NCBI GenBank assembly: GCA_947247005.1
Contig: OX365955.1
Location: forward strand, 44,681,822 to 44,745,821
DNA length: 64,000 bases
Source: Spisula solida
Taxonomy: Eukaryota; Mollusca; Bivalvia; Venerida; Mactridae
Direction: 5' to 3'
Shown here: piece after piece, positions 519-39,871 of the stretch
Layout of the letters: each line of letters opens with the position of its first letter
How positions within the stretch are numbered: the stretch's first letter is position 1
The notes under the pieces: model-generated
The model's input: only the letters and a program-made list of their open reading frames with translations
Told to the model about the DNA's origin: nothing
Databases searched by the model: none
Program-made: the position numbers and the translations under genes

Positions 519-542
519 ATACAGAACATACCACATATCCAC

Positions 543-4218: not shown

Positions 4219-4270
4219 CCGACTTAATAGCGTTGTGGTAGAGCGTCCTTTCCGAGTTCGATATCCCTTG
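4219..4270 (+). repeat. tRNA-like fragment (partial SINE head)
   Basis: Has an A-box-like TAGCGTTGTGG (4228-4238) and a B-box-like AGTTCGATATCC (4255-4266). They are too close together for a tRNA, because about 17 bases of the anticodon region are missing compared with the copy at 4363-4432. It points towards that copy, so the two form an inverted pair. It is a decayed retroposon, not a tRNA gene. Confidence 0.4.
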
Positions 4271-4362
4271 TTTTGTACCGAGCCGCGAGTCGTTGAAATG
4301 CTGTTCTTGTTCGCACGATGTCAGAGCAATGTTACTGGGTAGTATTCCTATGACTAAAAAAA

Positions 4363-4432
4363 GCCACACCAGGGATCGAACCCGGAACCTCTCTCACTCG
4401 AAGCGGACCTTCTACCACTAGGCTATCGAGGC
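4363..4432 (-). repeat. tRNA-derived SINE head or tRNA pseudogene
   Basis: The minus strand shows the two internal RNA polymerase III promoter boxes at tRNA spacing: A-box TAGCCTAGTGG (4415-4425) and B-box GGTTCGATCCC (4372-4382). It is followed by a run of T on that strand. The D- and T-arms can pair, but the acceptor ends do not, so it is unlikely to be a functional tRNA. It is most likely the head of a SINE. Confidence 0.6.
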
Positions 4433-4440
4433 GTATATAC

Positions 4441-5415
4441 GACCACCGCAAATAGTGGTACTCTTATACTGCTGAAACACAGAAACGTCACTATTGAAAT
4501 ATTTTCAGTTGACGGAATAATAAATTCACAATTAAAATTTCACGAATTCGAATTCAGATCTAAGAGTTCGTGAAGTAAAGATCGTGACTTTATCTTAATT
4601 CTGAGATCACATGACATTCTGAGGAGGAAATAAACGGAAGTCTTCCGAAGCGAGAGTGCCGGTCACTTCCGGTCTATGGCTAGACGCTGCTACTATTGCT
4701 ACAGTAATTGTTCATTGCTAACTGCTCATTTGTTACGTGATAATATGTATAATGGCCAATTTATAGATAAGGAAAAACGCATTTCATCGCCAGAATTTCC
4801 ATTATGGCACATATCAAAGCATTTCAATTAATTTCAAATTACAATGTTTATTTCTTCTGATAATTACGCTTGCTTATCGCATCCAAGAGTATCCGCTAAT
4901 AGCATACGCGCGTGCGTGAACATTTAAATGGTCACAATAAGCGTCTTGTGATACCGCGCCTTTAGTCAACTTAGCACATTCTTCCAGTATAACGAATCCT
5001 AAGCATTGTTAAGTTACACGTCCTCCGCGTAACGCATCTTTAAAACGCACCGTTTATAACGTCATCACCATGCACTCTCCTCGTATACCCACCAACGCGT
5101 CCTCTACACCATGTACTCTCCCAAAAACTAACCTCTTTGCATACTCAAAGCGGCATCCATACCCAAATAACGCTCCGTTTGTAGTAGTGCTCTTTATATA
5201 ACGTTAGTGATCTGTTCTGATATCCGTCGACAACCATAATGACCCCACACATCGCGTGGCTGTAGTAGCTTAAGCAGAGCCTGTGAATTATTTATGTGAT
5301 AATATTCAAAGATGTACACATCAACATGAGCACCTGAATACATACCCTACATAAAGTCCAGTTATATACATGTAGTTGCAAGGTGATAACATATAATTTC
5401 AAGATGATTTTACTT
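4441..5415. other. no recognisable feature
   Basis: No coding frame, tandem repeat or paired termini seen. Confidence 0.5.
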
Positions 5416-5666
5416 ACTTACACACCGTACAACCCGCTGTGTGTAAGGCAGTTATGTATGTCAAAGGCAGAGACACACGCGTTTTGTGCTACTAGAGTGG
5501 GGTAAGTATTTGTTATTTTATATGTGTTTTGCGTTGCTTGTAAGAGTGATCACTTACAAATATCGTTGACGCGATGAATGAACAATAAGTATATACAAAA
5601 CGCATGTGTCTCTGCCTTCGACATACAGAACTGCCTTACACACAGCGTGTTGTACGGTGTGACTTA
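5416..5666. mobile_element. MITE, 241 bp, 67-bp inverted repeats, 5-bp target duplication
   Basis: The element runs 5421-5661. Its left arm 5421-5487 begins CACACCGTACAAC and its right arm 5595-5661 is the reverse complement, with only about four mismatches in 67 bp. Both ends are flanked by ACTTA (5416-5420 and 5662-5666). The 107-bp centre has no coding capacity. It is a non-autonomous DNA transposon mobilised in trans. The low arm divergence and intact duplication argue for a fairly recent insertion. Confidence 0.9.
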
Positions 5667-6151
5667 GGTCGCATGTTCCACTCGCTTAAAATCTAAGGCT
5701 TGTTTACCTTACGGTAGCCCTTTGCTGTATTCTCGTTTCCCATGAGTTGTTTACCAAAACACCAGTCTTTAGTTTTATATGCTTTGAGGTTTGGATGGAA
5801 TCGAACACGTATGTGTTTGACATAACACACTTTTTACATTAAGGCATAATATGACGTGATTGAGGTTAATTGAAAGATAATTGAACTTAGATCTGTTTTT
5901 CCTATCTTTTATTATTGTTTCGCTCATTTTCTTCATATACCTCTGATTCATATACATGTAATAACATAGAGGTAGCTCACAACTTTGTAATAAAAATATG
6001 TTTTTCCGGATGTTGTGCCGTTTGTTTTCTCAGACTATTACGGGGGTAGCTGGTCTTCAGAGAGGTTATATTACCTACATTTAATAAAGTGTTACCTCGC
6101 TCTTCTACGAGCAACATTTGGAAGACAGTGGGTGTGGTTTTAGAAAAGGCT
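5667..6151. other. no recognisable feature
   Basis: No gene or repeat structure seen before the minisatellite that follows. Confidence 0.5.
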
Positions 6152-6873
6152 CTCCCAGTACAGTATTTCAGTTATCGCACTCTTTTCCAGTGCAGAATTT
6201 CTGTTATCACCCTCTTTTCCAGTACAATTTTGCAGCTATCACACTCATTTCTAGTACCATGTTCATTATTGCAGTTAGCATACTCTTTTCCAGTGCAGTA
6301 ATGCAGTTATCTTAGTTATCACACCATTTACAGTACCATTTTGCTGTAATCACACTCTTTTCACATGCATACTGCAGTTCTTGCATTCTTTATCATTGGG
6401 GTATTGCAATTGTCACACTATTTTTAAGTGTATAGTATTATTGCACTCTTTTTCTGTACAGTATTACAGTCATCGCAATTTTTTCGGTGTATATTGCAGT
6501 TATCGCACTTTTTTTCTGTGTATATTGCAGTCATCGTACTTTTTTCGGTGTATATTGCAGTCATCGTACTTTTTTCGGTGTATATTGCAGTCATCGTACT
6601 TTTTTCGGTGTATATTGCAGTCATCGTACTTTTTTCGGTGCATATTGCAGTCATCACTTTTTTCGGTGCATATTGCAGTCATCGTACTTTTTTCGGTGCA
6701 TATTGCAGTCATCGTACTTTTTTGGTGCATATTGCAGTCATCGTACTTTTTTCGGTGTATATTGCAGTCATCATACTTTTTCTGGTGCATATGACAGTCA
6801 TCGCACCTTTCTGGTGCATATTGCAATCATCGCACTTTTTCAAGTGTTGAGTATTGCAGTTATTGCATTTTTC
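6152..6873. repeat. minisatellite, about 30-bp unit, decayed at both edges
   Basis: The core (about 6476-6840) is near-identical copies of a 30-bp unit containing GGTGTATATTGCAGTCATCG plus a T-run. Towards 6152 and 6873 the units degrade in length (28-31 bp) and sequence. This gradient is typical of arrays homogenised by unequal exchange in the middle. Since 30 is a multiple of three, several frames stay open on both strands; they are not genes. Confidence 0.95.
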
Positions 6874-8267
6874 TTATAAATAATCTCGTTAGTGTTACAT
6901 TTTAATCTGGTGTTTTCAACATCATTAAGTTGTATTTAAATCAGACGTGAGAGGGTTGTCTATGCTTATGGTAATGACGAGTTTCATGTTGTAAGATGCA
7001 ATTTTGTTAATGAATATCGTTAATGGAATTTTGTATCAATTTACACCTTAAGAACTGATTGCAAATTATGTAACTTCAATTACGACGCATATTGATTAGG
7101 GTGGAGTTATCAAATGCATCATAAAAACGCTTCAAACACAATGTGTTACTTATCTCTGCTTCTGTTATTCGTCTTGGTTTATGCTAATAACCAATTAGCA
7201 CGGATTGTTCCGGCGGTGAATTTAAGGAGACGATTATATACCTTTCTCTGTCAAAAAACTGGAAAATGTAATGCATTTTCTAATAAAGGTTATTCTATAG
7301 AATTCCGATACAATGTCTAGAATTTCTGCTACAGTTTAACGGCACCCCACCCATGTGAACAATAGTTTAATTTGCACGGTGTTGTCATATTTCAAAACGC
7401 TGGTATTATGTTCTCTGTGAAAGTAATTTATACGCTTGCACGTTTACTGATAATATACCCAAATAAGTAAAATATACCCTTAACATTCCCTTATATTGTA
7501 AGTTCACGTTGTCATTAACATTTGGCTAATGGTTTGAGAGTGTTTGAGACGGTACAAAGACACATTTTTGTCTGTAAGAATTTCCCCGTCTTAGTCTGTA
7601 CCTGCGGTTATAGCATACATACTGCAGTTCATTTGCATTTGTTTATCTAAACAAACATGATACAACCATGATACATTTGCGTTTCGCCTTGTCTTAAAAT
7701 CACTTACTGCGCAATTATTGAACAATTGGTATGATCACCCATTAAAAGAGATTCTAACACGATCTGCGGATTAATCCATATAAACATATAAACAGAGAGC
7801 AGACCAGGCCATGTATTATTACCGCAATATAACATGGTATCAAATTGGCTATTACTATTTACGCCCCGTATCACGTGACATATTTATGAATGAATGAACG
7901 TAAACGTTATAGTGAAAAACTTCAACGGATCGCGAGTTGCACGAGTATCCAGTGTTACAGCTATGACGCATCTATTTTTAGAAACTACAATATACTCTCG
8001 AAAGTAAGATTCATAAAAACTTGTGATAATCAATTAATTTATATTTTTCATTTCATGAAATAGATGCATTATTTTCGTGTTATTAAAATTGTTTCAATGT
8101 TTAAAATTTCCTTCTGAAAATTACGAAGGTCGTTTTCATTAACGAGGGAGGTAATTGTACCAGCTAATAAGCCACTCAATTTCAGCGTGGAATTATGTTC
8201 AATGTCAAATAGGTGAAAATGGAATGCGCGCAGTTAAATAGTGCGGGATATTATCGTATTTAGAATT
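6874..8267. other. mostly featureless; one weak small ORF
   Basis: Apart from the small reading frame at 7141-7320 nothing is recognised here. Confidence 0.5.
7141..7320 (+). CDS. weak candidate: small secreted peptide ORF
   Basis: From the ATG at 7141 (a second ATG lies in frame at 7114) the frame encodes 59 residues. They begin MCYLSLLLLFVLVYA, which looks like a signal peptide core, followed by a basic stretch (NLRRR) and two cysteines around QKTGK. No family is recognised. No splice sites, polyadenylation context or homologue could be checked. A hydrophobic start plus a short open frame can arise by chance in AT-rich DNA, so this is most likely not a gene. Confidence 0.13.
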   Translation: MCYLSLLLLFVLVYANNQLARIVPAVNLRRRLYTFLCQKTGKCNAFSNKGYSIEFRYNV

Positions 8268-8421
8268 GAAATAAAAACCCTGTTCTTGTATTTTGTCGGT
8301 GAATAAAACACGGGCACTCGTTCGCATGCGGAAACTACGCACTCGTAATTTAATTTTTCCGCATCCGAACTCCTTTCCATGTTTTATTCACCGACAAAAT
8401 ACACGAACAGATTTTTATTTC
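8268..8421. mobile_element. foldback (hairpin) element, 154 bp
   Basis: An almost complete palindrome. The arms 8268-8310 and 8380-8421 share TATTTTGTCGGTGAATAAAA with one mismatch over the central 29 bp. The inner arms GTTCGCATGCGGAAA (8320-8334) and its near complement (8356-8370) leave a loop of about 20 bases. It is non-coding. The architecture matches the foldbacks at 2414 and 15719, although the sequences differ. Confidence 0.85.
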
Positions 8422-9500
8422 TTAAACAAAAACCTGGATTCTATGCAAGTGTTGTTTGTCTGTAAATATACTATTACCAAAGTATGCGGTGTTTTCTGTG
8501 CTCGACTGTTTATTTAAGTTAAATGCTGCTTTCTCTGTCCGATAATCTATTATCTTCTTTTGTGCCCACTGTGCAGCTAACATTTTTAGGTATACCCAGT
8601 CTCAGCATTCAGATAAACAAACCACGTGCACTTTTAATTGGTACTCAGTTTCATTCAAGTGGAAAAACCACAAACCGCAAATCTTTCAAACTCGACAAAT
8701 ATTCCACTCTAACCTTCACATAGCTGGGTGTTTGTAGATGAGTACAAAAACGTATTTAGTCTGAAAACAAATATATATGTAAAACTTTACCCCAGAAAGG
8801 AGAAATTAGAGACGAAATTTCAGCGCTAGATTTAAATTAGATCCGTAGCTTTTTGTTGAAACCACATATCTTAAGTTGTAATATGATATTAAGGGTGGTG
8901 CCGTATAAATGACTTAAAAAGCTATCTAGACCTATACCGTGGAGTCGATGGAGGTGTTTATAAAACACTAGCTTTGTATAAATATTTAGACTAAAACAAG
9001 GACCATATCTCGCTACTTAAGTCTAGTTTCACACGGCACGACTTTGTTCGGTCACATATTTCTCAAATGTGACGATGACGAAGGCATTATGGTGTTCGGG
9101 ATTTTAATGTATTTTGATGCTTCCCGTTTTGACAAATTGTAGCCAACTGTTTGAAGTTTTTGTATAAACTTTACGCACAGTATGAAAATATTTTGATATA
9201 TCTGGTAAAACTCATGACAAACGCATTTCTACAGTATTACATACACGTTTTTATAGTCAGTGATCCAAGGAGCTAACCAACTGTTACACAGTAGCACGTT
9301 GAACATGTGCTCCGATGTTACGGATGTCATGCATTGAATTTACTACTGAACGACAAGGCTCTTGCGAGTCTTCTATGAATTTTGGCTTCATTAAAGATGA
9401 CAGCGGTCGTTATTATTTCTGAACCAATCAGGCTGCCTGTTACAATTGTCGCGTTGTCTGATTGTTACCTGGCTTCGTTTTGGTGATAGAGGTAGAAAGA
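8422..9500. other. no recognisable feature
   Basis: No gene, tandem repeat or paired termini identified. Confidence 0.5.
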
Positions 9501-9555
9501 GACAGACGCTGGAAACCAAGTTGTTCTTGCTTTTGGAAGTGTTCGGTGTTTTAGG

Positions 9556-9659
9556 TTCCTGTGATCTTCACAGATCTATACCATAGATCTACTACATTAA
9601 ACAACAAACACTTTATAACTTATTATATAGTATAATTGTAATAAGCACTTGGGCAAGCT
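9556..9659. repeat. 104-bp direct repeat, copy 1
   Basis: Appears identical to 10012-10115. It opens with two small dyads, CTGTGATCTTCACAG and ATCTATACCATAGAT, and ends CTTGGGCAAGCT. The core could be read as TG...CA like a small LTR, but no primer-binding site or matching flanking duplication is present. Confidence 0.9.
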
Positions 9660-9818
9660 AGCTTACTTTCTATTATCAATACATTCATCATTCTATCAGC
9701 AACAGATCATCTCATAAATATGCATACACATTAATATACCAACATCATCTCATATACATAAAGTACATGTAACAAATTTATAGCACATAACACGCATCTT
9801 TCCCCATTTTTATGAACT

Positions 9819-10012
9819 AAAAATTATACGTCTTGTAAGCTCTAAGTGCCCAAAGCTGAATGACCACATACCTTCAATCACTGCGCACGACAACTCGTGC
9901 GCTATGGTTACCAACATAACAAGTCCTGATTCGTGCAATCAGAAGATCTTAACCAATCACAGGAAAGCATTTTCCGTCTTATGCGCTTCGCTTAACCGAC
10001 AGAAAATAAATT
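9819..10012. repeat. 194-bp direct repeat, copy 1
   Basis: Begins AAAAATTATACGTCTTGTAA and matches 14519-14712 with one visible substitution (AACCAATCAC against AACCACTCAC). The copies start exactly 4,700 bp apart. Here the copy is followed directly by the second 104-bp repeat. The near identity implies recent duplication or conversion. Confidence 0.92.
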
Positions 10013-10115
10013 TCCTGTGATCTTCACAGATCTATACCATAGATCTACTACATTAAACAACAAACACTTTATAACTTATTATATAGTATAATTGTAATAA
10101 GCACTTGGGCAAGCT
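10012..10115. repeat. 104-bp direct repeat, copy 2
   Basis: Second copy of the segment at 9556-9659. It is followed by GAACCTAAAAG, an inverted match to the TTTTAGGTTC that precedes copy 1. The 9556-10115 interval is therefore flanked by a short inverted repeat. Confidence 0.9.
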
Positions 10116-10719
10116 GAACCTAAAAGAACGGGAAAACCATACGTGCGTGCTATAAACAGTAACTATCAAATTACTAAAATCGCTTTTTAAATTGTTCATT
10201 GACATTGTGAAACATCATAATAAAGGACATTTCATATAACCACCGTATGCATATTCATAGCAACACTTGTTGTGTCTCTTAAATTCGCATTGTCATGTGT
10301 AGATTACGAAACATCAAGAATCAACATGTTCAAACGTTAATATTGTTTTAAATTGTTTCACTTTCGAAGTTGAATACAATATCTGAACGTATCAGCACAT
10401 TATTCATTGGTTAGTTCGCAGCATTCACAAAAGGTTCTTCATATAAAACCGATGTAAAAAGTAACGTACACATTGATCACTAACACTGAATCTCGGGGGG
10501 TTTCATATCAAACCAAACACGTATCCATTTGATTTCATCGTAACACTGAGTGAATTAGAATTACACATATAGGAGAAAAAGAATTGCTCATGATCGGAAG
10601 GATATCCTCTTCACCCACAATTACCTCAGGTCCACTTACTACACAATAAAAACCACTCTTGTCACTTAGGTGGTGCTGTCTGTGCGAGCGTCCTTCAGTA
10701 ATTCCGGGATCCGAGGTAT

Positions 10720-10767
10720 CTAATCCGCAGCCAATTCAGTCAAGTCATCAAATCCGTTATAATCATC
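10720..10767 (-). CDS. weak candidate: terminal exon
   Basis: On the minus strand a good 3' splice-site context, CTGTTTATTTCAG (10780-10768), is followed by 48 bases encoding DDYNGFDDLTELAAD and a stop. The acidic, low-complexity reading could be the C-terminus of a protein whose other exons lie further right on the minus strand. No partner exon was recognised, and acceptor-like sequences are common, so this is speculative. Confidence 0.15.
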   Translation of the reverse strand, partial: DDYNGFDDLTELAAD

Positions 10768-11119
10768 CTGAAATAAACAGATTGTATGAACAAACACATT
10801 CGTATAAACACCGCTAATAAAGGTCAATAACTCATTATCTACACGTATTATCAAAGCTTAACAGCCTATGTATTATACTCTTCAGCTCAAATATAAAATG
10901 ACAGACATACCTATTCATATCAAACACAAATGTTAATTGCTTGTTAAATTCATACATACATATACTGTACTGATGTGTGTATTGCTTACGGTCCGCAATA
11001 TTACCCAAACCAGACGTTAATCTAAATTCAAAATTTTATAGATGCACTGATACATATAAACATTTAATATGGCGCACTATTGTACCAAAAGTTAATAACA
11101 ACATTCCCAACTTATAAAC

Positions 11120-11640
11120 ATATTCGACGGTATTATATTATACCATGTCCACACATATTATCAAGGCTTGTCAGCCTAGACATACTATTCAATGTCTAGC
11201 GATTCTAAAGGCAGCCACGCCGATTCATATCGTCCATTACTTGTTAAAACAGTTCAAACGTAAACATATCAGATGTTAACATATACACATGAATCATTTA
11301 TACCATAACATATTGTCACGACTTGTCAACCTGAACTATACCATATCACACATATTATCAAGACTTGTCAACCTGAACTATACCATGTCACACATATTAT
11401 CAAGGCTTGTCAGCCTAGACATTCTACTCAATGTCTAGCAATTCTAAAGGCAGCCACGTCAATTCATAAACAAACAAACAAACAAACAAACAAACACACA
11501 TATCACCAAGACTTGTCAACCTGAACTATACCATGTCACACATATTATCAAGGCTTGTCAGCCTAGACATTCTACTCAATGTCTAGCAATTCTAAAGGCA
11601 GCCACGCCAATTCATAAACATGCTTATTTTCCATTACTGA
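11120..11640. repeat. three units with paired stem-loops
   Basis: Three related units whose hairpin cores lie at 11163-11199, 11402-11438 and 11550-11586. Each core reads AAGGCTTGTCAGCCTAGACA then a loop and ATGTCTAG. It forms two adjacent hairpins: AGGCT-TGTC-AGCCT and CTAGACAT-(8-base loop)-ATGTCTAG. The 8-base loop differs (ACTATTCA against TCTACTCA) while both stems are unchanged. Flanks such as CAATTCTAAAGGCAGCCACG are also shared. Partial units lie near 11320-11356 and 11715-11757. Confidence 0.88.
11468..11497. repeat. (CAAA)n microsatellite
   Basis: Seven or so CAAA units inserted between two stem-loop units of the surrounding family. Confidence 0.9.
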
Positions 11641-11934
11641 TTAAAACAATTAGTTTAAACGAAAACATATGTTAGAAGTTAGCATATTGCACCATAACAT
11701 GTTATAACTAATATCCCGACTTGTCAGCCGAACAATATATTCATTGTATAGCAACTAAGTACATGATTGTACGTAATAATATTGCTATCCTGGCTAAGTA
11801 TATTGATTTTAAAATAATTTCAACTGTAAATGTGCTATGTTTAAACACGTCATCGAAGTTTTGTCCGCTTAGAAATAATGCTCAAAAACAAGCAAAACAC
11901 GTGCAATACATAAAAATTGCTGATTACTATAGCA

Positions 11935-12135
11935 CAGTCAGGGTAATAATACAGTGACGCGGCGGTCGGGTCCACTATAACGGTGTAAAACCAATATAAA
12001 GGCTAAAACAGACAGCAATATTTTCATTGCTAAACTAACAAACTATATTCGCACTACCTATACTGGCAATACTTGTAATCTTATGTGTACACATAAACAG
12101 CTACGTCACTGTCACCAGATCCTAACTGGATTATA
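11935..12135. repeat. about 200-bp diverged direct repeat, copy 1
   Basis: Runs from CAGTCAGGGTAATAATACAG to CTAACTGGATTATA and aligns end to end with 13446-13651, with scattered substitutions and small indels. The region has no coding capacity. It belongs to the nested duplications of the 5.3-kb block. Confidence 0.9.
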
Positions 12136-12289
12136 GTTAAATTAACATGCCAAATTGAATTTAAATTTAGTAAACACCTTAACATAAGATCGAATTTATA
12201 CCGTGCCAAGTTCAAGTCAAATTTATAACAAATATTTTATAACTTATAAACAAATACGTAAACAAGCTTATCATTTCAGTGTCTACCGG

Positions 12290-12570
12290 TACACATATTA
12301 TCAAGGCCTGCAAGCCTAAACAAAATATTCCATGACAAGGAATTATGACATAAATGCCCATTTATATGCATTAAGCTTATGTATTTATGATTTTTATAAT
12401 ATGAACTACTAACATTTCGACGGTATATATACCATGTCCACACATATTATCAAGACTTGTCAGCCTAGACATACTATTCAATGTCTAGCAATTCTAAAGG
12501 CAGCCACGCCGTTTCATATCATGCATTACTTGGTTAAAACTTGAAACAGTTCAAACGTAACCATATCAAT
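12290..12570. repeat. partial and full stem-loop units
   Basis: A degenerate unit begins at 12290 (AAGGCCTGCAAGCCT keeps the first stem). A full unit follows with its core at 12452-12488. In the full unit the second hairpin, CTAGACAT/ATGTCTAG, is intact, while the first has one mismatch (AAGACTTGTCAGCCT). Downstream sequence GGCAGCCACGCC and TTCAAACGTAACCATATCA also matches the unit at 11120. Confidence 0.85.
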
Positions 12571-12924
12571 GCTATCACTTATAATCTACCAAAACAAAAT
12601 TGTTCCTCGCATCAGGTAATTCTTTTCTCAGAAAATTACTCAGTCAATGCTACCCGTCCAACAACCGTTACCCACTTCGATCCGATCATACCGATCATAC
12701 CGATTCTAACTTTCACCATTCGTAGGTGTGCCAATAGCCAATAACATTTTCTATAACTCTACCACCTTCAATTTCCAATATTTAATTCAAAGTTGGTATA
12801 TTACCAACAACGGTCCTTACTAATACAAGAACTCTTTATTTGCCAGTTTTCTAAATTTACCTTTGTGTCCTCCCTTCATCTAAACAAGACTACATTTGCA
12901 CATTAGTTCCCATAGCGTATAAAC

Positions 12925-13035
12925 AAAACCACTGTATGACTTATTGGGATACTATACATTTCAAAATTTATGACCCACCGCGAGCAAAAGCACCCATGAT
13001 TTCGATCACTGTATGACTTATTGAAACGTGAATCA
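12925..13035. repeat. fragments of a dispersed repeat (ACTGTATGACTTATTG family)
   Basis: CACTGTATGACTTATTG occurs twice here (near 12930 and 13009) with AAAAGCAC between. The same words recur in longer form at 18036-18205 and 21131-21232, so these are pieces of one interspersed family. Confidence 0.65.
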
Positions 13036-13445
13036 TTTCTACAAAGATCATGTACACCAACAATAGCTATCATTTCAACTGAGTTATCCATTAATTAACA
13101 CGAACAGTTAATCTAAGTGCTCTAGCATGGAGCATGTGCTATTAACAATTCTCATTGTAAATAAATGTATGCGGCACATTTGAATTTGCCAATCAGATAT
13201 AATATAGATATGAAAAACTCCAATACGTTCCACTGTTCTTTATCCCAGAATTAGAATTTAAAGCTACACAACCAGTATGGTTACATTTTCCAAGATTAAT
13301 AATGCATTAGTTCTGTGATATACATTTTGGATTTTCATAATATGCATACCTAATACATTGCAACTGAATTATACATCGTACTAGTATTCTGTCAGCATGT
13401 CCGTGACTGACATTCTAATACAGTATAAACAATATACATATAGTT

Positions 13446-13651
13446 CAGTCAGGGTAATAATACAGTGACGCAGCGGTCAGGTCCATTATTACGGTGTAAA
13501 ACCAATTATAAAGGCTTAAACAGACAGCCATAAAATTATATTCAATGCTAAACCAACACACTATATTCGCACTACCTATTCAGACCATGGTTCCAATCTT
13601 CTGTGTACACAAACGAATCCCTCACTGTCACCAGATTCTAACTGGATTATA
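13446..13651. repeat. about 200-bp diverged direct repeat, copy 2
   Basis: Counterpart of 11935-12135, about 1.5 kb downstream in the same orientation. Confidence 0.9.
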
Positions 13652-14518
13652 CAGTGGCATATCTTAGTAAATAATCAATTTTAGTTCGAAATCTTTTAAC
13701 AAATATATTATCTTTTCGTTTATCAAATCAATTGGGTAGAACATAAATAAGTATGACATTTATATTTTCCTACCCATCAGTGTTTACATACCAAAATCTA
13801 CTTTCCACGTGCAGCACCTGTTATAAAGTATCAAAAGCAGTATAAAACATTATGTCATATATTTTAGCCAACATTTCTGTATGTTCATGTACAAAGCTAG
13901 TAAATATTTCCATTTTAAACCCATACGGATAACAGAGATTATGATAGTATTCATATCTATACTTGGTCGCAACGTATCAAAAAAGATTTTAAATGCAAAC
14001 ATTTCTTACAATTAAGTAAAAAGCCAATCAATCTAGATGTGTAAAACTACCGAGACTTTAAACAGATTTCTTTGGACGAAATATTCGTGCGTAAATCAAT
14101 ACCACACCTATCAAAACAATAAAACACGTAAAATACTCATCTTCCATTCTGCAGTGCGTGTGTTTATTCATCTACATCGACTCGTTCTGCTTATGGAAAT
14201 CGTCCAACACGGCCATGCAAAACTCTCGCCATATTAAGTGGTTTCTTGTCCACGTCTCTTGGTAGGCATGCAATATCTGGCCCGAACGGGTTCTTCTGTA
14301 GAATTCTCCCCAACAGGATAAATGGAACGTTTGCACTGTCAGCACTCCATAGTCAAGTGCGTAGCTGTTCGTCAAACTGGCTGACTAAGACAGTCTCGAA
14401 TTTCAACTGAATCGTCCATAATGTTAATCGAAACACTATTTTTACTGAGTCCAATTGTTCTAACACTAAACATAACGTCTGCTGAATAACTGCGTTAGGT
14501 GTGGTCTCACTATCCACG

Positions 14519-14712
14519 AAAAATTATACGTCTTGTAAGCTCTAAGTGCCCAAAGCTGAATGACCACATACCTTCAATCACTGCGCACGACAACTCGTGC
14601 GCTATGGTTACCAACATAACAAGTCCTGATTCGTGCAATCAGAAGATCTTAACCACTCACAGGAAAGCATTTTCCGTCTTATGCGCTTCGCTTAACCGAC
14701 AGAAAATAAATT
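14519..14712. repeat. 194-bp direct repeat, copy 2
   Basis: Matches 9819-10012 except for one base. Here it is followed by about 38 unique bases and then the 56-bp boundary segment at 14751-14806, so its right-hand context differs from copy 1. Confidence 0.92.
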
Positions 14713-14872
14713 AGTCTCATATAGTCAAATCATGTTAAATTACTTTTCTCGACAGAAGCTGGAAACCAAATTGTTTCTGCTGTCGGAAGTGTTCGGTTTT
14801 TTAGGTAGTCACATAAGTAAAATCCTGTCGAAATTTACTTTCTCGCTGAGGCGAGCCAGGATAATGGGTGCA

Positions 14873-15108
14873 TATTAATTACACGTGCATTTTGTATTAA
14901 TAATTACACGTATTACCCGTGCATTTTGTATTAATAATTACACGTATTACCCGTGCATTTTGTATTAATAATTACACGTATTACCCGTGCATTTTGTATT
15001 AATAATTACACGTATTACCCGTGCATTTTGTATTAATAATTACACGTATTACCCGTGCATTTTGTATTAATAATTACACGCATTACACGTGCATTTAGTA
15101 TTTACAAA
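14873..15108. repeat. minisatellite, 34-bp unit
   Basis: About six head-to-tail copies of a 34-bp AT-rich unit containing CCGTGCATTTTGTATTAATA and AATTACACGTATTA. The first and last units are diverged. Confidence 0.96.
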
Positions 15109-15268
15109 CGTAATCTACATAATAGCTTGTGAAACTTTAACATGTAGAGTGTCTCTTTGTGGATACAAGTCATCGTTACAACTTACAACAAGGCAACCAT
15201 GGTGACAATGTCACGTAAAACGTAACATTATTATAGTGAATCAGACGACATCAAGTTGAAATGCCTGG

Positions 15269-15400
15269 TACGAGGGTTGACCCAGAATTACGCAGACTTT
15301 TGTCATAACTATTCATCGTACAAACAAATACTATTGTATGGAGTGACAAAAATATTTATTGCACATGTAAATAAAATTTCAAAGCCGCATCTCTGCCGGA
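15269..15400 (+). mobile_element. possible mariner-like 5' end (fragment)
   Basis: TACGAGGGTTGACCCAGAAT at 15269 resembles a mariner terminal repeat and shares TACGAGGGTTG with the inverted end near 230. No matching right end or transposase is present nearby. It could be a truncated copy or chance. Confidence 0.28.
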
Positions 15401-15548
15401 TCGCATTCTGCAGGTTCTGGGGATAGACAAGGACCATCTTTTCAATTGGTATTCAGAGCTTCCTGTGTGCATCATACGGGTATTTACGTACAAACTGCTG
15501 TATAATGTAATACAACATGTACATATATATCTTTTTTAATTGAAACAC

Positions 15549-15570
15549 TTGTTACTATATATAGTAACAA
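15549..15570. repeat. perfect 22-bp palindrome
   Basis: TTGTTACTATA followed by its exact reverse complement, with no loop. No flanking duplication was seen. Confidence 0.85.
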
Positions 15571-15718
15571 AAATGAGCCTACTTGCGGCTGATTATGGCC
15601 ATCTACCTCAGTGTATATCTACATAAGGAATATTTACGTTATTTGTTCTTCATAGATTTTATGAAATCGAACAATTGTATTAAATACTTTAATACACTTC
15701 AGAGACTGGCCTGAAGTT

Positions 15719-15796
15719 GATAATCCGCCCGGAATGAATAATCACCCTCGGGCTGAAGCCCTCGAAGTGATTATTTTATTTTCCGGGCGGATTATC
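15719..15796. mobile_element. foldback (hairpin) element, 78 bp
   Basis: The outer arms GATAATCCGCCCGGA (15719-15733) and TCCGGGCGGATTATC (15782-15796) are perfect. Inner arms AATAATCAC and GTGATTATT enclose a self-complementary tip, CCTCGGGCTGAAGCCCTCGA. It is GC-rich against an AT-rich background. It is non-coding, with the same layout as the other foldbacks in the window. Confidence 0.85.
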
Positions 15797-16360
15797 GCCT
15801 CCCTGCACGGCTGTGTCGTGTATTAACCTCTAAATAACGACGTACACGATGAATATGAATACTATGTGTCTGTATTTATAATTATTAATTCTTTAGGAAG
15901 AAATATTTCAGCTTGAAAATCCTATTATTGAATAGTATATCAAATGTTTACATAACTTAAGGTGTACAGACACCCTTTTATTAGAATTTCCGGTCGTTGC
16001 GTTTAACAAATATGTAGTGTACACATACGAAATGTATGTTTATTTTCCCTACCAGACCAATAATACGTAATGATTATTATAACAAATGAGGAAAAACACT
16101 TTACTGTAAATACGTAATTATATACAAACATACATTTATAATTGTGGATGTTGGGAAAGAGGAGCTTTCGTATCTATTGTGCTTCTGTCTGTTAGAGTAT
16201 TATCTAAGTCTTGAAGAAAAATAAATGAACGTTTTTACTCGCGTCGATTCTGAAAATGATAGTAAGCATATTATATATTTTGTAAAGACGTAAGCTAGGA
16301 AGACCCAGGATCAGGTACAAATATACTCCGAAGAGTACTCTACAATGAGGTGAAATAAAA
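15797..16360. other. no recognisable feature
   Basis: Nothing seen between the foldback and the next MITE. Confidence 0.5.
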
Positions 16361-16599
16361 CCTAGGTCCCACTGATCATGTTTTGCCTCGGCGATCAAGG
16401 TACTCCCAATTGAAACGAATGAGCTATCACGACACCGGGAACAGGTTCCTCGGGGTTCTAGGGGAAGCTTCGGGGGGGGGGGGGGGGGGGGGGAGTCATG
16501 AGACAGTTTGTGATATCGGAAGAAATTGTGATGAATCGGGTGGTATCGGAAGAAATCGGGAGAAAATCGCCGATGTGGAATTCCTCAGTGGGACCTAGG
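16361..16599. mobile_element. MITE with perfect 15-bp inverted ends and a 22-G tract
   Basis: CCTAGGTCCCACTGA at 16361-16375 is matched exactly in reverse complement at 16585-16599, bounding 239 bp. A run of 22 G lies at 16472-16493 in a purine-rich strand that also repeats TATCGGAAGAAAT twice. No target duplication is certain (TAAA-like bases lie on both sides). It is non-autonomous and has no coding capacity. Confidence 0.75.
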
Positions 16600-17359
16600 C
16601 TTAAAGTCTCGACAGCTAGAAGCAACTGCAAGTGGCAGATCACAATGGAGATCACTCCCCACAAAAGGCGTAATATAATTATATATACATTTTTAAAAAA
16701 TATGTTGGTGTCTTTTGGTGCATATATACGATGTATTTGTACTTTGCACGTGGTATATATGAGACGTGTTGTGTTCCTCATACCTCACTGTTCATAGACA
16801 TAACTTTGTGGATTAGCTTCCAATCTCTATATATTGCTAGATGTGTGTGGTCTGACTAAACTAATTAACAACTAATTCTAATAATCGGAATGATCATGTA
16901 ACTTCATTCAGACTGGCAAACTATTATACTGTGTAGTAAAACCTGTTTCTTCAGCAATCGGGGATTCATCTAATATCGATACGAGGCTAAACGCAGGTGG
17001 TTGATTAATACAGGTTGCATTCTATATAAAACAGCTGGTTTTTAAGTCAAGTCAAGTGAATTCTATTTTGAGTAGGTAAACAAACATAGTAAAAAAATCA
17101 TATTAAGTCAAACAGGGAAGGTAGCACTCAACTTAACCATACAAGTCTCAGTGCCCAACACACAACCGAACGAGTAAATGATCCGCCCAAGTCCCAGCTA
17201 CCGAAAAGCTGAATGAACTACATGTAGTTTCAGCAATAAAAAAGCTGAATGTCAAAGCTGAATGGCCCAGTTTCAACAGTAAAACGGCTGAAATACCTAG
17301 CTTAAGCTGTCTCGAGTCATAAAAAGTTGAAAATTAGCTAAAATGAGCTATTAAACCCG
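16600..17359. other. no gene; short dispersed-repeat fragment
   Basis: CAGGGAAGGTAGCACTCAAC near 17108 matches fragments at 31609 and 56951. Otherwise nothing is recognised. Confidence 0.5.
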
Positions 17360-17450
17360 ACTTAATAGTGTTGTTAGTGATGGCGCGGTGGTAGAGTGGA
17401 TTGGCTGTACAGTATGTCGTATTTGCCGTGTAAAACACCTCAGTCTTAGA
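17360..17450 (+). repeat. tRNA-like / SINE fragment
   Basis: GACTTAATAGTGTTG matches the start of the fragment at 4219. It is followed by GGCGCGGTGGTAGAGTGG, which resembles a tRNA D-arm and A-box. No B-box is recognisable. It is a decayed relative of the 4.2-kb pair. Confidence 0.35.
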
Positions 17451-18035
17451 GACAAGATAACTATGACCATATCACCATGCTCTGACGAATGCCTAGTGCT
17501 TATATTCGTAAAAACTAACAAAGTGTAATTTTAATACGATAACCAGTGGACATAAACCTTAATATTATAGATATCATAATCGATATGTGATGATATTGAT
17601 TAAAGGCGTAACTGATTAGATCAATAGAAATTATCGTCTGCTCTGAAATAGATTTCAATGATTACATAGCTCAGTTATTATACTTTTCATGAATTCATTT
17701 TCTCACAATATAATACTATGCACATTTTTGCTAATTTCACTTTTGAATTACTTGCAATCAAAGCTTGTTAAAATCTAGCTCACATTTTGACAGTGGGGGA
17801 GTTTGTTCAATGATTACATCAATGTGAATGTTGACAGGAATATTAAATGATTTACTATTTTATATCTATACTATCAATAGCTGCATTTTGGAAAGGAGAT
17901 TTTTTACGTGTGTTTGATTTTCGAACCATCTGTCAAACATTACATATAATACATACAAACTGTTATATACGTAGCGGTAGATATTTTTTTACCACTGATT
18001 GTAATAGTATTAAAGCCATGTATAAACCTAATCAC
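17451..18035. other. no recognisable feature
   Basis: AT-rich, no structure seen. Confidence 0.5.
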
Positions 18036-18205
18036 TGTATCATTTCTTGCGACGCTATATAAATCACTTACTATGACTTATTGCGAACAAAAGCACATGT
18101 AACTTCCGATTACTGTATGACTTATTGAGATACTATACAGTTCAACGTGTATGACTTCTTGTAATAACCGGATGTTGACTCGTTTATATACTGTGATTTA
18201 TACTC
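18036..18205. repeat. dispersed repeat, copy (ACTGTATGACTTATTG family)
   Basis: Contains ACTGTATGACTTATTGAGAT, AACGTGTATGACTTCTTG and TAACCGGATGTTGACTCG in the same order as 21131-21232. The words CTGTATGACTTATTG and TATGACTT recur inside, so the element is itself built of short diverged sub-repeats. Confidence 0.75.
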
Positions 18206-18221
18206 TTATATAAGCCGGCTC

Positions 18222-18282
18222 TATTGGCCTAGTGTTTTAAGTATCCGCCTTCGGTGTGAATGATCGAAGGTTCGAACGAGGA
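18222..18282 (+). repeat. tRNA-like sequence beside a MITE
   Basis: GGCCTAGTGTTTTAAG resembles an A-box region and GGTTCGAACGAGG a B-box, at tRNA-like spacing. Immediately past the MITE that follows, CCCGGGTTGAGAATCCGTGC (from 18535) again looks like a T-arm. This suggests the MITE may have landed in or next to a tRNA-derived repeat. Confidence 0.4.
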
Positions 18283-18536
18283 GGCCCCGATCTCCCGAAA
18301 TATCTCAATTCGAGCTAAATCTCATCTCAAATATTGCCATGTGTCTTTTAGATATTTTCCATAGGAAACTGGATTCAAAATGTGCATCACTAAACAGAAA
18401 ACCTTAGTCGTAGTTTATTACGGTAAAATTTAAAGCGCTTGAACTTCAGAACTTTCTCAAATTCTGACTCTTGATTCGAGCAAAATCTCAATTTGAGATG
18501 AGATTTCTACTTGAGATGCTTCGGGAGATCGGGGCC
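18283..18536. mobile_element. MITE family member, copy 1
   Basis: The perfect 17-bp ends GGCCCCGATCTCCCGAA (18283-18299) and its reverse complement (18520-18536) bound 254 bp. Further inside, CTCATCTCAAATATTG and CAATTTGAGATGAGATTTC continue the dyad. The body aligns along its length, in the opposite orientation, with 25982-26231. It is non-coding. Confidence 0.88.
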
Positions 18537-18603
18537 CGGGTTGAGAATCCGTGCTGATAATATAAATAGGAGAGTTATCAGCTAGTTAAATCAATGCTTA
18601 TCA

Positions 18604-18687
18604 TCATTCTGATCACCTCGGCCTTTATGCATTGACTATAGACTATTTACCGGAGAAAAACGGTAATGACCGAGCTTTCACGATTGT
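18604..18687. repeat. small hairpin repeat, copy 1 of 3
   Basis: CATTCTGATCACCTCGGCCT ... ACCGGAGAAAAACGG ... GACCGAGCTTTCACGATTG. The CTCGG and CCGAG segments pair. The same conserved left and right blocks, with a variable middle, recur at 42442-42509 and 53533-53613. The length is about 68-84 bp. Confidence 0.82.
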
Positions 18688-18774
18688 GGTAACCATGTGC
18701 TTTCCTGCCTTAATTACAAACTTTTGCAGTTTAAAAAACTCTGTTTTAGTTTATTTGATTTTATTTATCCTCGC

Positions 18775-19083
18775 CATCGGAAATCAATATGGGCGAGGCC
18801 CCCAGAAGAGATTAGTCAGTTTAGCTTTTGGGGAATAGTGCATGATACAGAATATGCACCAGTTTCAGAATCATCGCTGGTTCTTTTGCGGGCCGATGTA
18901 AAGCATCATACACAGGACCTCCCTTAACGTCTCTTCCGAAAGACTGTTAGTAATTTTAGTTATGGTGGGTGGGCAACACTGAAAAGCATTTCTATTCTTG
19001 TCTGTCTGGATGAGGAATCGAACCCACAACCTTCTGATCGATCAGTAGTCAGTAGCTCTGACCACTAGACCACTTGTCCACCC
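18775..19083 (-). mobile_element. MetaSINE-like retroposon
   Basis: On the minus strand a tRNA-like head has A-box GTGGTCTAGTGG (19062-19073) and B-box GGTTCGATTCC (19014-19024). It is followed by a body with GACGTTAAGGGAGGTCCTGT, GCCCGCAAAAGAACC and further matches, as I remember them, to the conserved central domain of MetaSINE-type elements of invertebrates. The 3' part ends near CGATGGCGAGG. SINEs have no protein; they are transcribed from the internal promoter and moved by a partner LINE. The copy is diverged and probably old. Confidence 0.7.
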
Positions 19084-19195
19084 TCTAAAAAACTCTGGAA
19101 CTCGAGCCCTCTTATCATCGACGCTGCGGCTCTATTGTAACTATTACCAGCATATCTGTTATTTAAAAGCGTGGGCTGTAATAGAACACAAATGG

Positions 19196-19204
19196 TTTAC
19201 TTAT
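19196..19204. repeat. 9-bp target duplication, left
   Basis: TTTACTTAT immediately outside the left end of the foldback transposon, repeated exactly at 23351-23359. Confidence 0.92.
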
Positions 19205-20145
19205 AGCTGTGTGAAGTTGGCTCAACATACGACATACGACATACGACATTCAAAAAATCGAATGTCGTCCAGCTCGACATACGACATTGGACGACATTCA
19301 AAAAATCGAATGTCGTCCAGCTCGACATACGACATTGGACGACATTCAAAAAATCATCAAAAATCGAATGTCGTCCAGCTCGACATTGGACGACATTGGA
19401 CGACATTCAAATATCATCAAAAATCGAATGTCGTCCAGCTCGACATTGGACGACATTGGACGACATTCAAAACCTCGTCTAAAATCGAATGTCGTCCAGC
19501 TCGACATTGGACGACATTGGACGACATTCAAAAAATCATCAAAAATCGAATGTCGTCCAGCTCGACATTGGACGACATTGGACGACATTCAAAAAATCGT
19601 CTAAAATCGAATGTCGTCCAGCTCGACATTGGACGACATTGGACGACATTCAAAATCACCGAAAAATCGAATGTCGTCCAGCTCGACATTGGACGACATT
19701 GGACGACATTCAAAAAAATCGTCTAAAATCGAATGTCGTCCAGCTCGACATTGGACGACATTGGACGACATTCAAAAAATCATCAAAAATCCAATGTCGT
19801 CCAGCTCGACATTGGACGACATTGGACGACATTCAAAAAATCATCAAAAATCCAATGTCGTCCAGCTCGACATTGGACGACATTGGACGACATTCAAAAA
19901 AATCGTCTAAAATCGAATGTCGTCCAGATCGACATTGGACGACATTGGACGACATTCAAAAAATCATCAAAAATCGAATGTCGTCCAGCTCGACATTGGA
20001 CGACATTCAAAAAAATCGTCTAAAATCGAATGTCGTCCAGATCGACATTGGACGACATTGGACGACATACAAAAAATCATCTAAAATCGAATGTCGTCCA
20101 GCTCGACATTGGACGACATTGGACGACATTCAAAACGTTGTCAGT
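19205..20145 (+). repeat. left arm of foldback element: about 61-bp satellite, 15 units
   Basis: The unit is CGACATTGGA repeated one to three times, CGACATTC, a spacer of about 18 bases, then GAATGTCGTCCAG and CTCGA or ATCGA. Each unit is itself a hairpin, with GGACGACATTC pairing with GAATGTCGTCC. The spacer comes in a few forms (ATCATCAAAAATC, ATCGTCTAAAATC and variants) shuffled along the array. Two units use AGATCG instead of AGCTCG. The last unit, near 20145, degenerates. Open frames in this array are repeat artefacts. Confidence 0.96.
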
Positions 20146-22205
20146 AATTGAATGCCTTGCAGCTCGAAGACGTTAAAACATAGTTGAGATGATGTTAGTA
20201 GTCAGTAATTTGGAAAATATCGTCTCTGGTGTACACTAGAATGTCGCGAAAATTAATTACATTACTCACCTTTACTAGCAATATCCTGTGTACAGTATAC
20301 CGCAGTGATGATTACATTTTAAATATTGTTACGGCATTTTGACCCCATTCAAAACAATAATTAAAACCAGTGAATGTAGTTATTTATACCCGCGCGAAAT
20401 CCCGTTCACAACGGTCCCATGATTGTGTGTACCGTATTATGGAAACATATGCGTGCACATTCTCCGCTGTCGGCGGATTCGAAATGCATGATTGTTATAT
20501 TCGAATTTTATTTGAATTGTATTCGAATTATCTTAGAAGTATTTCTAACGACATTTAGACAAGCTGTAATATTTTTGGTCATTTCGAATCATCATTCGGA
20601 ATTTGTTTCAAATTTTTAGTTTTTATTAATTCCGACTCATTCGGACCCATTCCGGCTGATTCGAGATTCGTATGATTGGGGTATCAATTACGTCTATCGC
20701 AAGCCCGATACCTGTAAAAACTACATACACATGGGTAACGAACTAGTATGTGTTTATCCACGTCCCTATTGTTTCGCTTACCAATCATGATGTAATAGTG
20801 TATGTTGAACGCATAGCTAGACTGATTCTGACCCTGTGGTTCGGCTGTGCACTTTCCACTAACGGAAGTGTACACAGCATTACTCAAGTTTTGCGGTCAA
20901 ACCTCGTAAGTTTTTTCGATTTGTTTTATGTCATTTCATGCGCATTATGAAATGAATAATAACCAAACCAGCATTGGAGACTACATATGTACATAAATAT
21001 CAAATTGCATCACATATAATTTCAGGTGTATTCGTAAGTAATATGGCGTCCATATTTGACGTCATTTTGGATTCCCGGGTTCGTACAATATGTTGATAAT
21101 TCATGCCGACAGTTATATATTCCATATATAAACCAAATCACTGTACAACTTATTGCGATACTATACAAGTCAACGTGTACTCCTTATTGTGATAACCGGA
21201 AGTTGACTCGTTTATACACTGTTCTATTAGTATTTAACATTGCTTGTTGCATTTTAGTTGTCACCTACCCATGAATAGGCTACTTTTGTGCCGAGTGTCA
21301 CTCGACTCTTGGGCACCGTGGACAGCAACTGTAGATACTAGTATACAACAGACGGACGAACAAGAGCATTCAAAATATTATCTTAAATCCTTGTCAGGCT
21401 GCCTGAACATAACTAGTAATTATTGAACAAACACAAGTTTAGATTAAATGTCCGTGACTTTATTAACAGAACTATTATTATAACAAATATTCCAGTTGAC
21501 ACAAGAAAAGTATAAAGTAAAACCAAAATATCCGGTAATATCGCAAAGCAACTCGCAAATATTCCAAACTATTCACGATTTACTGAAAGTACACAAGTCT
21601 TAGCGAATCTATAAACTCCCCTAACCAAATTGATTAAGTAAATAAAACTATATTTTGTTATGTTTCCGAAATTTTGTGCATTGTGTACCGTTGAAATTCA
21701 CGAAAAGAAACGCCCCACTTAAACTTCTGTGAATAGCCATGCAACCAAAATAACCTCAAATTGCGTTTCCTGATGCTAAGATTAAAGATTGTAAAAACCA
21801 AATAAGTTGTTCCGCACATTGAATAATTTAAACTCCTACGGTTGCTAAGCGACTCATCACAAAGAAAAACAATATAGCGGACAATAAAGTATCAACAAAT
21901 ACAAACTTTACATGACTGACTCCTTACATCAGCAAGTGACAATATTCGTTCATTCTACAATGATTGAACAAAAAGTGCAACATTTTAAATCCAAACATGC
22001 ACACATAAACAAGGTAAAGTCGCGGAAATTGATTACGTTTAGATAGGCCGTTCTGATATGGGTAAATATGCTAGATCTAAATGTAAGTAAGATTATTAGC
22101 ATAATATAACAGAGAAATGTGCTTTGTCAGTTGAGACGTTCAAAGTTAACATAGAATAACAGAAATAATGATCGTATATTAAATGCACGCCTTAATGTTA
22201 TTATA
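20146..22205. other. central loop of the foldback element, non-coding
   Basis: About 2 kb of AT-rich sequence between the arms, with no reading frame above about 75 codons and no transposase motif. It holds a copy of a dispersed repeat (21131-21232), a cluster of ATTCGAA- and ATTCGGA-like words at about 20475-20675, and GTGCACTTTCCACTAACGG followed by a partial complement near 20850-20876. Either it never coded, or the coding part has been replaced. Confidence 0.7.
21131..21232. repeat. dispersed repeat copy inside the loop
   Basis: AAATCACTGTACAACTTATTG, TACAAGTCAACGTGTACTCC and TAACCGGAAGTTGACTCG follow the same order as 18036-18205, in the same orientation. Confidence 0.75.
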
Positions 22206-23350
22206 CATTCGATTTTAGACGATTTTTTGAATGTCGTCCAATGTCGCCCAATGTCGAGCTGGACGACATTCGATTTTTGATGATTTTTTGAATGTCGTCC
22301 AATGTCGTCCAATGTCGAGCTGGACGACATTCGATTTTAGACGATTTTTTGAATGTCGTCCAATGTCGTCCAATGTCGATCTGGACGACATTCGATTTTT
22401 GATGATTTTTTGAATGTCGTCCAATGTCGTCCAATGTCGATCTGGACGACATTCGATTTTTGATGATTTTTTGAATGTCGTCCAATGTCGATCTGGACGA
22501 CATTCGATTTTTGATGATTTTTTGAATGTCGTCCAATGTCGTCCAATGTCGATCTGGACGACATTCGATTTTAGACGATTTTTTGAATGTCGTCCAATGT
22601 CGTCCAATGTCGATCTGGACGACATTCGATTTTAGACGATTTTTTGAATGTCGTCCAATGTCGTCCAATGTCGTCCAATGTCGAGCTGGACGACATTCGA
22701 TTTCAGATGATTTTTTGAATGTCGTCCAATGTCGATCTGGACGACATTCGATTTTAGACGATTTTTTGAATGTCGTCCAATGTCGTCCAATGTCGAGCTG
22801 GACGACATTCGATTTCAGATGATTTTTTGAATGTCGTCCAATGTCGTCCAATGTCGATCTGGACGACATTCGATTTTAGACGATTTTTTGAATGTCGTCC
22901 AATGTCGTCCAATGTCGAGCTGGACGACATTCGATTTTAGACGATTTTTTGAATGTCGTCCAATGTCGTCAAATGTCGAGCTGGACGACATTGGATTTTT
23001 GATGATTTTTTGAATGTCTTCCAATGTCGTCCAATGTCGAGCTGGACGACATTCGATTTTAGATGATTTTTTGAATGTCGTCCAATGTCGTCCAATGTCG
23101 AGCTGGACGACATTCGATTTTAGACGATTTTTTGAATGTCGTCCAATGTCGTCCAATGTCGAGCTGGACGACATTCGATTTTAGACGATTTTTTGAATGT
23201 CGTCCAATGTCGTCCAATGTCGAGCTGGACGACATTCGATTTTTGATGATTTTTTGAATGTCGTCCAATGTCGTATGTCGAGCTGGACGACATTCGATTT
23301 TTTGAATGTCGTATGTCGTATGTCGTATGTTGAGCCAACTTCACACAGCT
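22206..23350 (-). repeat. right arm of foldback element: about 61-bp satellite, 18 units
   Basis: The reverse complement of the left-arm repeat, with 18 units counted by their GGACGACATT cores. Seven units use the GATCT variant against two of 15 on the left, and spacer types are again mixed. The arms therefore share end sequence but not unit order or number. This implies independent expansion, contraction and conversion after or between insertions. Confidence 0.96.
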
Positions 23351-23359
23351 TTTACTTAT
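23351..23359. repeat. 9-bp target duplication, right
   Basis: TTTACTTAT directly following the right terminus of the foldback transposon. Confidence 0.92.
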
Positions 23360-23997: not shown

Positions 23998-24790
23998 AGG
24001 CAAATTGCTCGTAATATACATGTCCTAGGCAAAATTGTTCAAGATAAAACTGTTCGAGGCAAAAAGCTCGAGACAAAATTGTTCGAGGTTAAACTACGCA
24101 AGGGACAAAACTGCTCCAGTTAAAAGTGTTCGAAGTAAACCTGATTGAGATAAAACTGTTCGACTGTTCCAAGAAAAACAGATCGAGGTAGAATTATTCG
24201 AAGTAGAACTATTCGAGGTAAAACTGTTCGAGGTAAATCTGTTCGAGGTAGAACTATTCGAGGTAAATATTTTCCAGGTAAATCTGTACGAGGTTAAATT
24301 ATTCAAGGTAAAACTGTTCGAGGTAAAACTATTCGAGGTTAAACTGTTTGAGGTAAAACTGTTCGAGGTAAAACTGTTTGAGGTAAAACTATTCGACGTA
24401 AAACTGTTCGAGGTAAAACTGTTCGAGGTAAAACTGTTTGAGGTAAAACTATTCGAGGTAAAACTTATCGAGGTAAAACTATTCGAGGTAGAATTATTCG
24501 AAGTAGAACTATTCGAGGTAAAACTGTTCGAGGTAAATCTGTTCGAGGTAGAACTATTCGAGGTAAATATTTTCCAGGTAAATCTGTACGAGGTTAAATT
24601 ATTCAAGGTAAAACTGTTCGAGGTAAAACTGTTCGAGGTCAAACTGTTTAAGGTAAAACTGTTTGAGGTAAAACTGTTTAAGGTAAAACTGTTTTAGGTA
24701 AAACTATTCGAGGTAAAACTGTTCGAGGTAAAACTGATCGAGGTAAAACTGTTCGAGGTAAATCTGCTCGAGGTAACTATGTTCAAGATT
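23998..24790. repeat. minisatellite, 15-bp unit, about 50 copies, higher-order repeat
   Basis: The unit is GTTCGAGGTAAAACT with variants (ATTCG, GTTTG, AAATCT, GAACT). A 147-bp block at 24184-24330 recurs, as far as I can read without any difference, at 24484-24630, exactly 300 bp later. A recent 20-unit segmental duplication therefore sits on top of the 15-bp periodicity. The left edge decays. A 182-codon minus-strand frame of TSNSF repeats is a product of the 15-bp unit and not a gene. Confidence 0.96.
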
Positions 24791-39842: not shown

Positions 39843-39871
39843 GCCTCGCGGCACATATTGTGCTGTTTTCC

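Follow-up and report, generated by a model that had tools for sequence, protein, structure and literature searches.

Structure of the element

The window analysed here, a stretch of 64,000 nucleotides, contains a 4146-bp element at positions 19205-23350, which by direct sequence comparison is flanked on either side by the target site duplication (TSD) TTTACTTAT (Table 1). From each terminus inwards, AGCTGTGTGAAGTTGGCTCAAC is followed by 3.6 copies of the 7-bp repeat ACATACG, then by units of 48 and 58 bp, and finally by a satellite with a unit of 61 bp. When delimited by unit anchors, the left arm, the right arm, and the loop are 934, 1122, and 2090 bp in length, respectively, close to the 0.94, 1.15, and 2 kb given in a preliminary description of this DNA; Tandem Repeats Finder placed the 61-bp-unit arrays at 19301-20135 and 22205-23301, with the right array reaching 22205. 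The 61-bp unit contains an inverted pair, GAATGTCGTCC...GGACGACATTC, which flanks 10-bp repeats, and a single unit folds on itself into a hairpin under RNA parameters. The foldback structure claimed in the preliminary description is thus borne out, i.e. termini exactly inverted over 103 bp, arms built of 61-bp units, a 2.1-kb loop, and a 9-bp TSD.

Table 1. Features of the foldback element and related sites in the window
Feature	Position	Strand	Basis
TSD, left copy, 9 bp, TTTACTTAT	19196..19204	+	sequence
TSD, right copy, 9 bp, TTTACTTAT	23351..23359	+	sequence
Terminal inverted repeat at the left end, 103 bp without mismatch; outer part AGCTGTGTGAAGTTGGCTCAAC, then 7-bp ACATACG repeats	19205..19307	+	
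Terminal inverted repeat at the right end, matching the left one exactly	23248..23350	-	
Left arm, 15 satellite units counted; 48, 58, and 60 bp first, mostly 61 bp thereafter	19205..20138	+	
Right arm, 18 units of the left-arm satellite in reverse orientation	22229..23350	-	
Loop, type A; longest stop-to-stop frame 79 aa	20139..22228	.	
Site related to that in which L012 is inserted, unfilled; target GTTTTACAC present once	11928..12132	-	
Another unfilled site of this kind; GTTTTACAC present once	13438..13653	-	

With up to three mismatches allowed, the window contains two occurrences of the terminal 17-mer, compared with an expectation of 0.07. No inverted pair of at least 80 nt was detected at 1-19100, and two weak inverted pairs of at least 60 nt are present at 23400-64000 (62 nt at 84% and 78 nt at 77% identity). 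The loop is taken as non-coding because its longest frame spans 79 aa. Stops are present in its translations. Neither Rfam matches nor tRNA genes were found in the window, and viral contigs yielded no match to an exact 22-mer of the element end.

Copy number and insertion sites in the Spisula solida genome

The host is the bivalve Spisula solida, in agreement with the molluscan origin suggested in advance, and its genome assembly (GCA_947247005.1; 932.0 Mb, 36 contigs) was searched for further copies. With up to two mismatches allowed, the assembly contains 549 occurrences of the terminal 31-mer (274 forward and 275 reverse), whereas the same pattern read backwards, used as a control, does not occur at all; halving the number of ends gives approximately 275 copies. 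Among 100 listed ends of the 549, 70 can be joined into 35 correctly ordered and oriented neighbour pairs; these span from 751 bp to 26.7 kb, with a median of 4.2 kb. Copies longer than 6 kb include those at C2:26073885-26100579 and C3:53291965-53299295. The partners of the other 30 of these 100 ends, which are unpaired, may lie among the ends beyond the 100 listed or may have decayed.

In total, 26 complete copies were read, i.e. the copy in the window and 25 others recovered from 34 other loci among the best 40 ends; being drawn from the best-matching ends, this sample is biased towards young and intact copies. An exact 9-bp TSD is present in 23 of the 26 copies, and all 23 TSDs differ from each other, with the probability of a chance 9-bp match between flanks being approximately 1.5e-5 per copy. 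The A+T content of the TSDs is 74%, compared with 67% in the flanks. The copy L012 sits inside a dispersed repeat, three relatives of which are unfilled: the two located in the window contain the exact target GTTTTACAC, and the third, found in L028, contains the target once with one difference. The 9-bp TSDs, together with the unfilled related sites, are what transposase-mediated insertion typically leaves behind. Mobility had been proposed in the preliminary description, to be recognized by copies with the same ends but with different 9-bp TSDs and flanks, and 23 of the 26 copies, as well as the unfilled related sites, attest to it.

Loop types and age of the family

The loop of the window element (type A) is present in 24 of the 26 copies, and the pieces found in 23 of the 25 other copies are 94-99.7% identical to it. 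In an alignment of 23 loops, from which the 12.5-kb copy and two copies with another loop (type B) were left out, the pairwise divergence of type A was 1.1% on average (median, 0.9%; maximum, 4.4%). When a 401-bp loop query was used against the whole genome and the best 40 of 796 candidates were scored, 22 reached the full score and 18 were one step lower; the 22 loops, including that of the window, are identical over the 401 bp. The low divergence and these identical stretches indicate that the elements with type A loops have undergone a recent burst of amplification.

The type B loop is unrelated to type A and was found in L019 and L023, which are 88-89% alike to each other in this region. 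Of 1024 candidates in a genome search with loop B, 40 were scored; 32 of these matched the query over its full or almost full length, with identities of 77-100%, whereas the matches at C14:17743676 and C15:30460113 are confined to its first 195 bp. Since both loops occur between the same ends, two loop lineages share these ends, and the copies with loop B are more diverged.

Variation of the satellite arms

The arms of the 26 copies contain from 7 to 41 units, and the numbers of units in the left and right arms are uncorrelated (r = -0.08). Left and right were defined by the loop and, for the two copies with loop B, by the strand. A 60-bp unit following the 58-bp unit was found in 18 of 26 left arms and in one of 26 right arms, and side-specific marks have therefore been kept. 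Runs of identical units are longer between the two arms of one copy (mean, 1.96) than between copies (1.42), and none of 10,000 permutations reached 1.96; the sharing of unit types is also slightly higher within a copy (0.162 versus 0.145; 196 of 10,000 permutations). These results support a degree of copying from one arm to the other within an element, with the permutations ignoring kinship between copies, such as that of L013 and L021. Arm length changes freely, probably via slippage or unequal exchange.

Search for the transposase

The longest frames in the interiors of the 26 copies range from 58 to 140 aa, and a loop encoding a MULE transposase, which the preliminary description had recommended looking for, was found in none of them. 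The 12.5-kb copy (C3:41767289-41779752) was considered as a candidate autonomous element and rejected; its excess length is a 7.2-kb foreign insertion in the loop, and it contains no frame longer than 140 aa outside the satellite arms.

A search of the genome with the PF10551 (MULE) profile gave 14 matches from 52 candidates, all of which were scored, but none of them lies within 45 kb of the 100 listed ends (of 549; reaching into C5 only) or of 118 places from the other searches, the nearest being 45 kb away. The PF00628 (PHD) profile gave 149 matches when 150 of 747 candidates were scored; of the 168 known places compared, which include part of the 549 ends, none has a match within 25 kb, and the nearest match is 25.6 kb away.

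Six MULE loci, each covered over 5.8 to 9.3 kb, were read as possible partners and rejected, as none has the ends of the foldback family: the 16-bp end (AGCTGTGTG...) and a 16-bp piece of the satellite unit are both absent from the six loci at up to three mismatches. With a shorter piece of the unit (13 bp), two matches in the C2 locus and three in the C11 locus appeared at up to three mismatches, and these are taken for chance. Two elements, C11 and C2, were read over their entire length. The termini of the C11 element form an exact inverted repeat of 334 bp, with a 9-bp TSD one base off, and the C2 element has termini of approximately 180 bp that are 76% alike, as well as a 23/185-bp minisatellite beside the transposase frame; the flanking repeats of both elements, judged by eye, are approximately 9-10 bp in length. 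The C8 MULE gene adjoins a 74-bp satellite (25.7 copies), and its named relatives are from Ruditapes and Mercenaria. MULE-type enzymes, some of them beside satellite-like DNA, are therefore present in this genome, and none is tied to the foldback family.

Relationship to known foldback elements

The FB elements of Drosophila have long inverted arms of short tandem repeats, a loop, and 9-bp TSDs. The Spisula family resembles FB in its inverted arms built of repeats, its loop, and its 9-bp TSD, an arrangement corresponding to the foldback architecture outlined in PMC4079207; it differs from FB in its 61-bp unit, its shared 2.1-kb loop, and its approximately 275 copies. Tetris of Drosophila virilis is also an apparently non-autonomous foldback element with tandem repeats in its inverted termini and TSDs of 8-10 bp, but its repeats are approximately 220 bp in length and three structurally complete copies are described (PMC4079207), whereas in the Spisula family the unit measures 61 bp, the loop is conserved, and the ends number in the hundreds. 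In that report, Tetris is assigned to Mutator by TSD length, its transposase not having been found (PMC4079207), and the same reasoning would place the Spisula family there. Tm1 of root-knot nematodes, a Mutator/foldback family, similarly includes non-autonomous members and an occasional copy without a TSD, but it differs in its low copy number and in having an identified transposase-bearing member (PMC3169594).

Galileo, a member of the P superfamily, likewise has tandem repeats inside its long inverted termini and includes some copies without matching TSDs, but it is described as being flanked by TSDs of 7 bp (PMC3573991), unlike the 9-bp TSDs of the Spisula family. The TSDs of MULEs are 8-11 bp in length (PMC6446971), a range that includes the 9 bp found in 23 of 26 copies. 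Most MULEs have G or C in the first three terminal bases according to an arthropod study (PMC13359780); the ends of the Spisula family start with AGC, a comparison with a rule taken from arthropods. Rehavkus has both a 9-bp TSD and satellite arrays in the inverted termini (PMC6446971, PMC10218199), and both features are present in the Spisula family. Rehavkus-1_TC of Tribolium is 9.5 kb in length and has a 164-bp repeat (PMC10218199), and differs from the Spisula copies examined, in which no transposase was found.

No molluscan foldback family was found among the openly licensed papers listed, at the level of titles and the beginnings of abstracts, and the foldback elements treated in PMC4079207 and PMC3169594 belong to flies, midges, sea urchin, nematodes, and plants. 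The bivalve elements described here form a genuine foldback family of a known structural class, which is non-autonomous and has been amplified recently. Tetris and Tm1 are both described as sparse in their hosts (PMC4079207, PMC3169594); the 549 exact or near-exact ends and the many near-identical copies in a chromosome-level bivalve genome provide material for studies of how satellite arms grow. The family is also suited to asking whether arms are copied from one to the other and whether they serve as binding platforms for a transposase. In addition, it offers an identified vehicle for one dispersed satellite, and rearrangements could plausibly occur at its paired inverted arms.

Probable mode of transposition and source of the transposase

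These data leave little doubt that the family consists of non-autonomous cut-and-paste DNA transposons with foldback architecture. A transposase supplied in trans would recognize the shared end (AGCTGTGTGAAGTTGGCTCAAC...), excise the element, and insert it at a 9-bp staggered cut, the repair of which would generate the 9-bp duplication; both the cut-and-paste mode and the action in trans are inferred. The transposase binding sites of Galileo are located within its long repeated inverted termini (PMC3688188), and by analogy the 61-bp satellite probably offers many secondary binding sites.

By analogy with elements that combine 9-bp TSDs with satellite-bearing inverted termini, the transposase is probably of the Mutator/Rehavkus kind; because no copy has a transposase-sized frame, this assignment draws on TSD length and architecture. 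Of the link to Mutator-like elements made in the preliminary description, the TSD length holds up; the 26 copies contain no transposase-sized frame, and no autonomous partner was found in the comparison with those of the 549 ends whose coordinates are known.

Two kinds of partner can be envisaged within this assignment. An ordinary molluscan MULE, several of which reside in the Spisula solida genome, is a tentative candidate: 14 MULE-domain matches are available, the C2 and C11 elements have long inverted termini and flanking repeats of approximately 9-10 bp, and minisatellites adjoin the transposase frame in the C2 element and the C8 gene, but the six loci read contain neither the end nor the unit piece of the foldback family. 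A Rehavkus-type transposase with a PHD finger, of which the family would be a satellite-armed non-autonomous derivative, is a similarly tentative, slightly less favoured candidate. Rehavkus is the closest architecture found with a named transposase: it has 9-bp TSDs and a minisatellite, its inverted termini measure 26-400 bp (PMC6446971), and in Rehavkus-1_TC the satellite array lies within these termini (PMC10218199). However, PMC6446971 lists Rehavkus from Arthropoda and Annelida only, and the PHD matches are all remote from the known places of the family, as described above. It is improbable that the ends starting with AGC, the 9-bp TSDs, and the satellite arms reflect a transposase of an undescribed kind, which would require the arms as a multi-site binding platform; if so, the satellite would be functional within the very transposon that spreads it through the genome.

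A satellite palindrome or segmental inverted duplication, which might be considered because the arms consist of satellite DNA, arrays of which are able to invert and duplicate, is refuted by the fixed termini, the 549 dispersed ends, the 23 different TSDs, and the unfilled related sites. Rolling-circle elements (Helitrons and Helentrons) generate no TSDs and have no inverted repeats at both termini. The chance that such an element carries the repeats is negligible in view of the exact inverted termini at both ends and the 9-bp TSDs, although Helentron-dispersed satellite-like arrays have been reported in oysters, likewise bivalves (PMC7492417).

Copies without matching target site duplications

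In three of the 26 copies (L015, L017, and L019), the 9-mers on the two sides differ. Galileo copies without matching TSDs have been interpreted as chimeras arising from exchange between copies (PMC3573991). A search of the genome ends for the reciprocal targets of L015 gave a single match, which fits neither of them. In L015 and L017, the nearest relatives of one half of the loop coincide or overlap with those of the other half, with no visible chimera (26 informative sites); L019, with its type B loop, stood outside this comparison. No genome end bears the reciprocal target of L015, and neither L015 nor L017 shows a clear switch between the loop halves. In a four-gamete test on the loops, 25 of 300 site pairs failed, near and far pairs alike. 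By analogy with Galileo, the three copies may be products of exchange between copies.

MULE genes and PHD matches in the host genome

Of the six Mutator-like (MULE) transposase loci read as candidate partners of the foldback family, three are described here (Table). The element on C11 carries 334 bp of exactly inverted termini, which start with GGTGTC. It is flanked by the 9-bp duplication GTCAAAGCC, with an offset of one base on one side, and looks to have been recently mobile. The termini of the C2 element are ~180 bp long and 76% alike, and a 23/185-bp minisatellite is located between its gene and one end. The C8 frame, whose named relatives are from Ruditapes and Mercenaria, is adjoined by a 74-bp satellite (25.7 copies), the unit of which also contains an inverted pair.

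In the genome search for the PHD finger (PF00628), in which 150 of 747 candidates were scored, many matches fall within long open frames (~1388-1806 aa) and have the same scores on several chromosomes. Instead of host genes, these matches may represent a protein encoded by a retrotransposon.

Repeats in the window and in the 12.5-kb copy

Besides the satellite of the element, the window contains seven more minisatellite arrays with short periods (15-36 bp), and inverted-repeat scans of positions 1-19100 (at least 80 nt) and 23400-64000 (at least 60 nt) detected no long arms around them. A stretch a short way to the left of the element is possibly a SINE, containing on its minus strand a tRNA-like internal promoter box; no tRNA was called by ARAGORN anywhere in the window.

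The loop of the 12.5-kb foldback copy on C3 harbours a 7.2-kb insertion, which has the ends TCAGGA...TCCTGA, is possibly flanked by a 6-bp duplication, as judged by eye, and carries a near-identical repeat of ~1.2 kb.

Table. Locations of the features in the host assembly (G000) and the window
Feature	Location	Fetched loci	Open frame
MULE, C8	G000:C8:40259300-40268600	L045+L042	364 aa
MULE, C11	G000:C11:48271800-48278800	L039+L036+L040	526 aa
MULE, C2	G000:C2:8873000-8881500	L037+L035+L038	776 aa
Region of 12.5-kb copy with loop insertion	G000:C3:41766900-41780200	L009+L010	
SINE-like stretch	window 18960-19083		
Minisatellite array	window 1674-1834		
Minisatellite array	window 6449-6840		
Minisatellite array	window 14878-15102		
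Minisatellite array	window 24027-24776		
Minisatellite array	window 39867-40277		
Minisatellite array	window 45868-46075		
Minisatellite array	window 48791-49222
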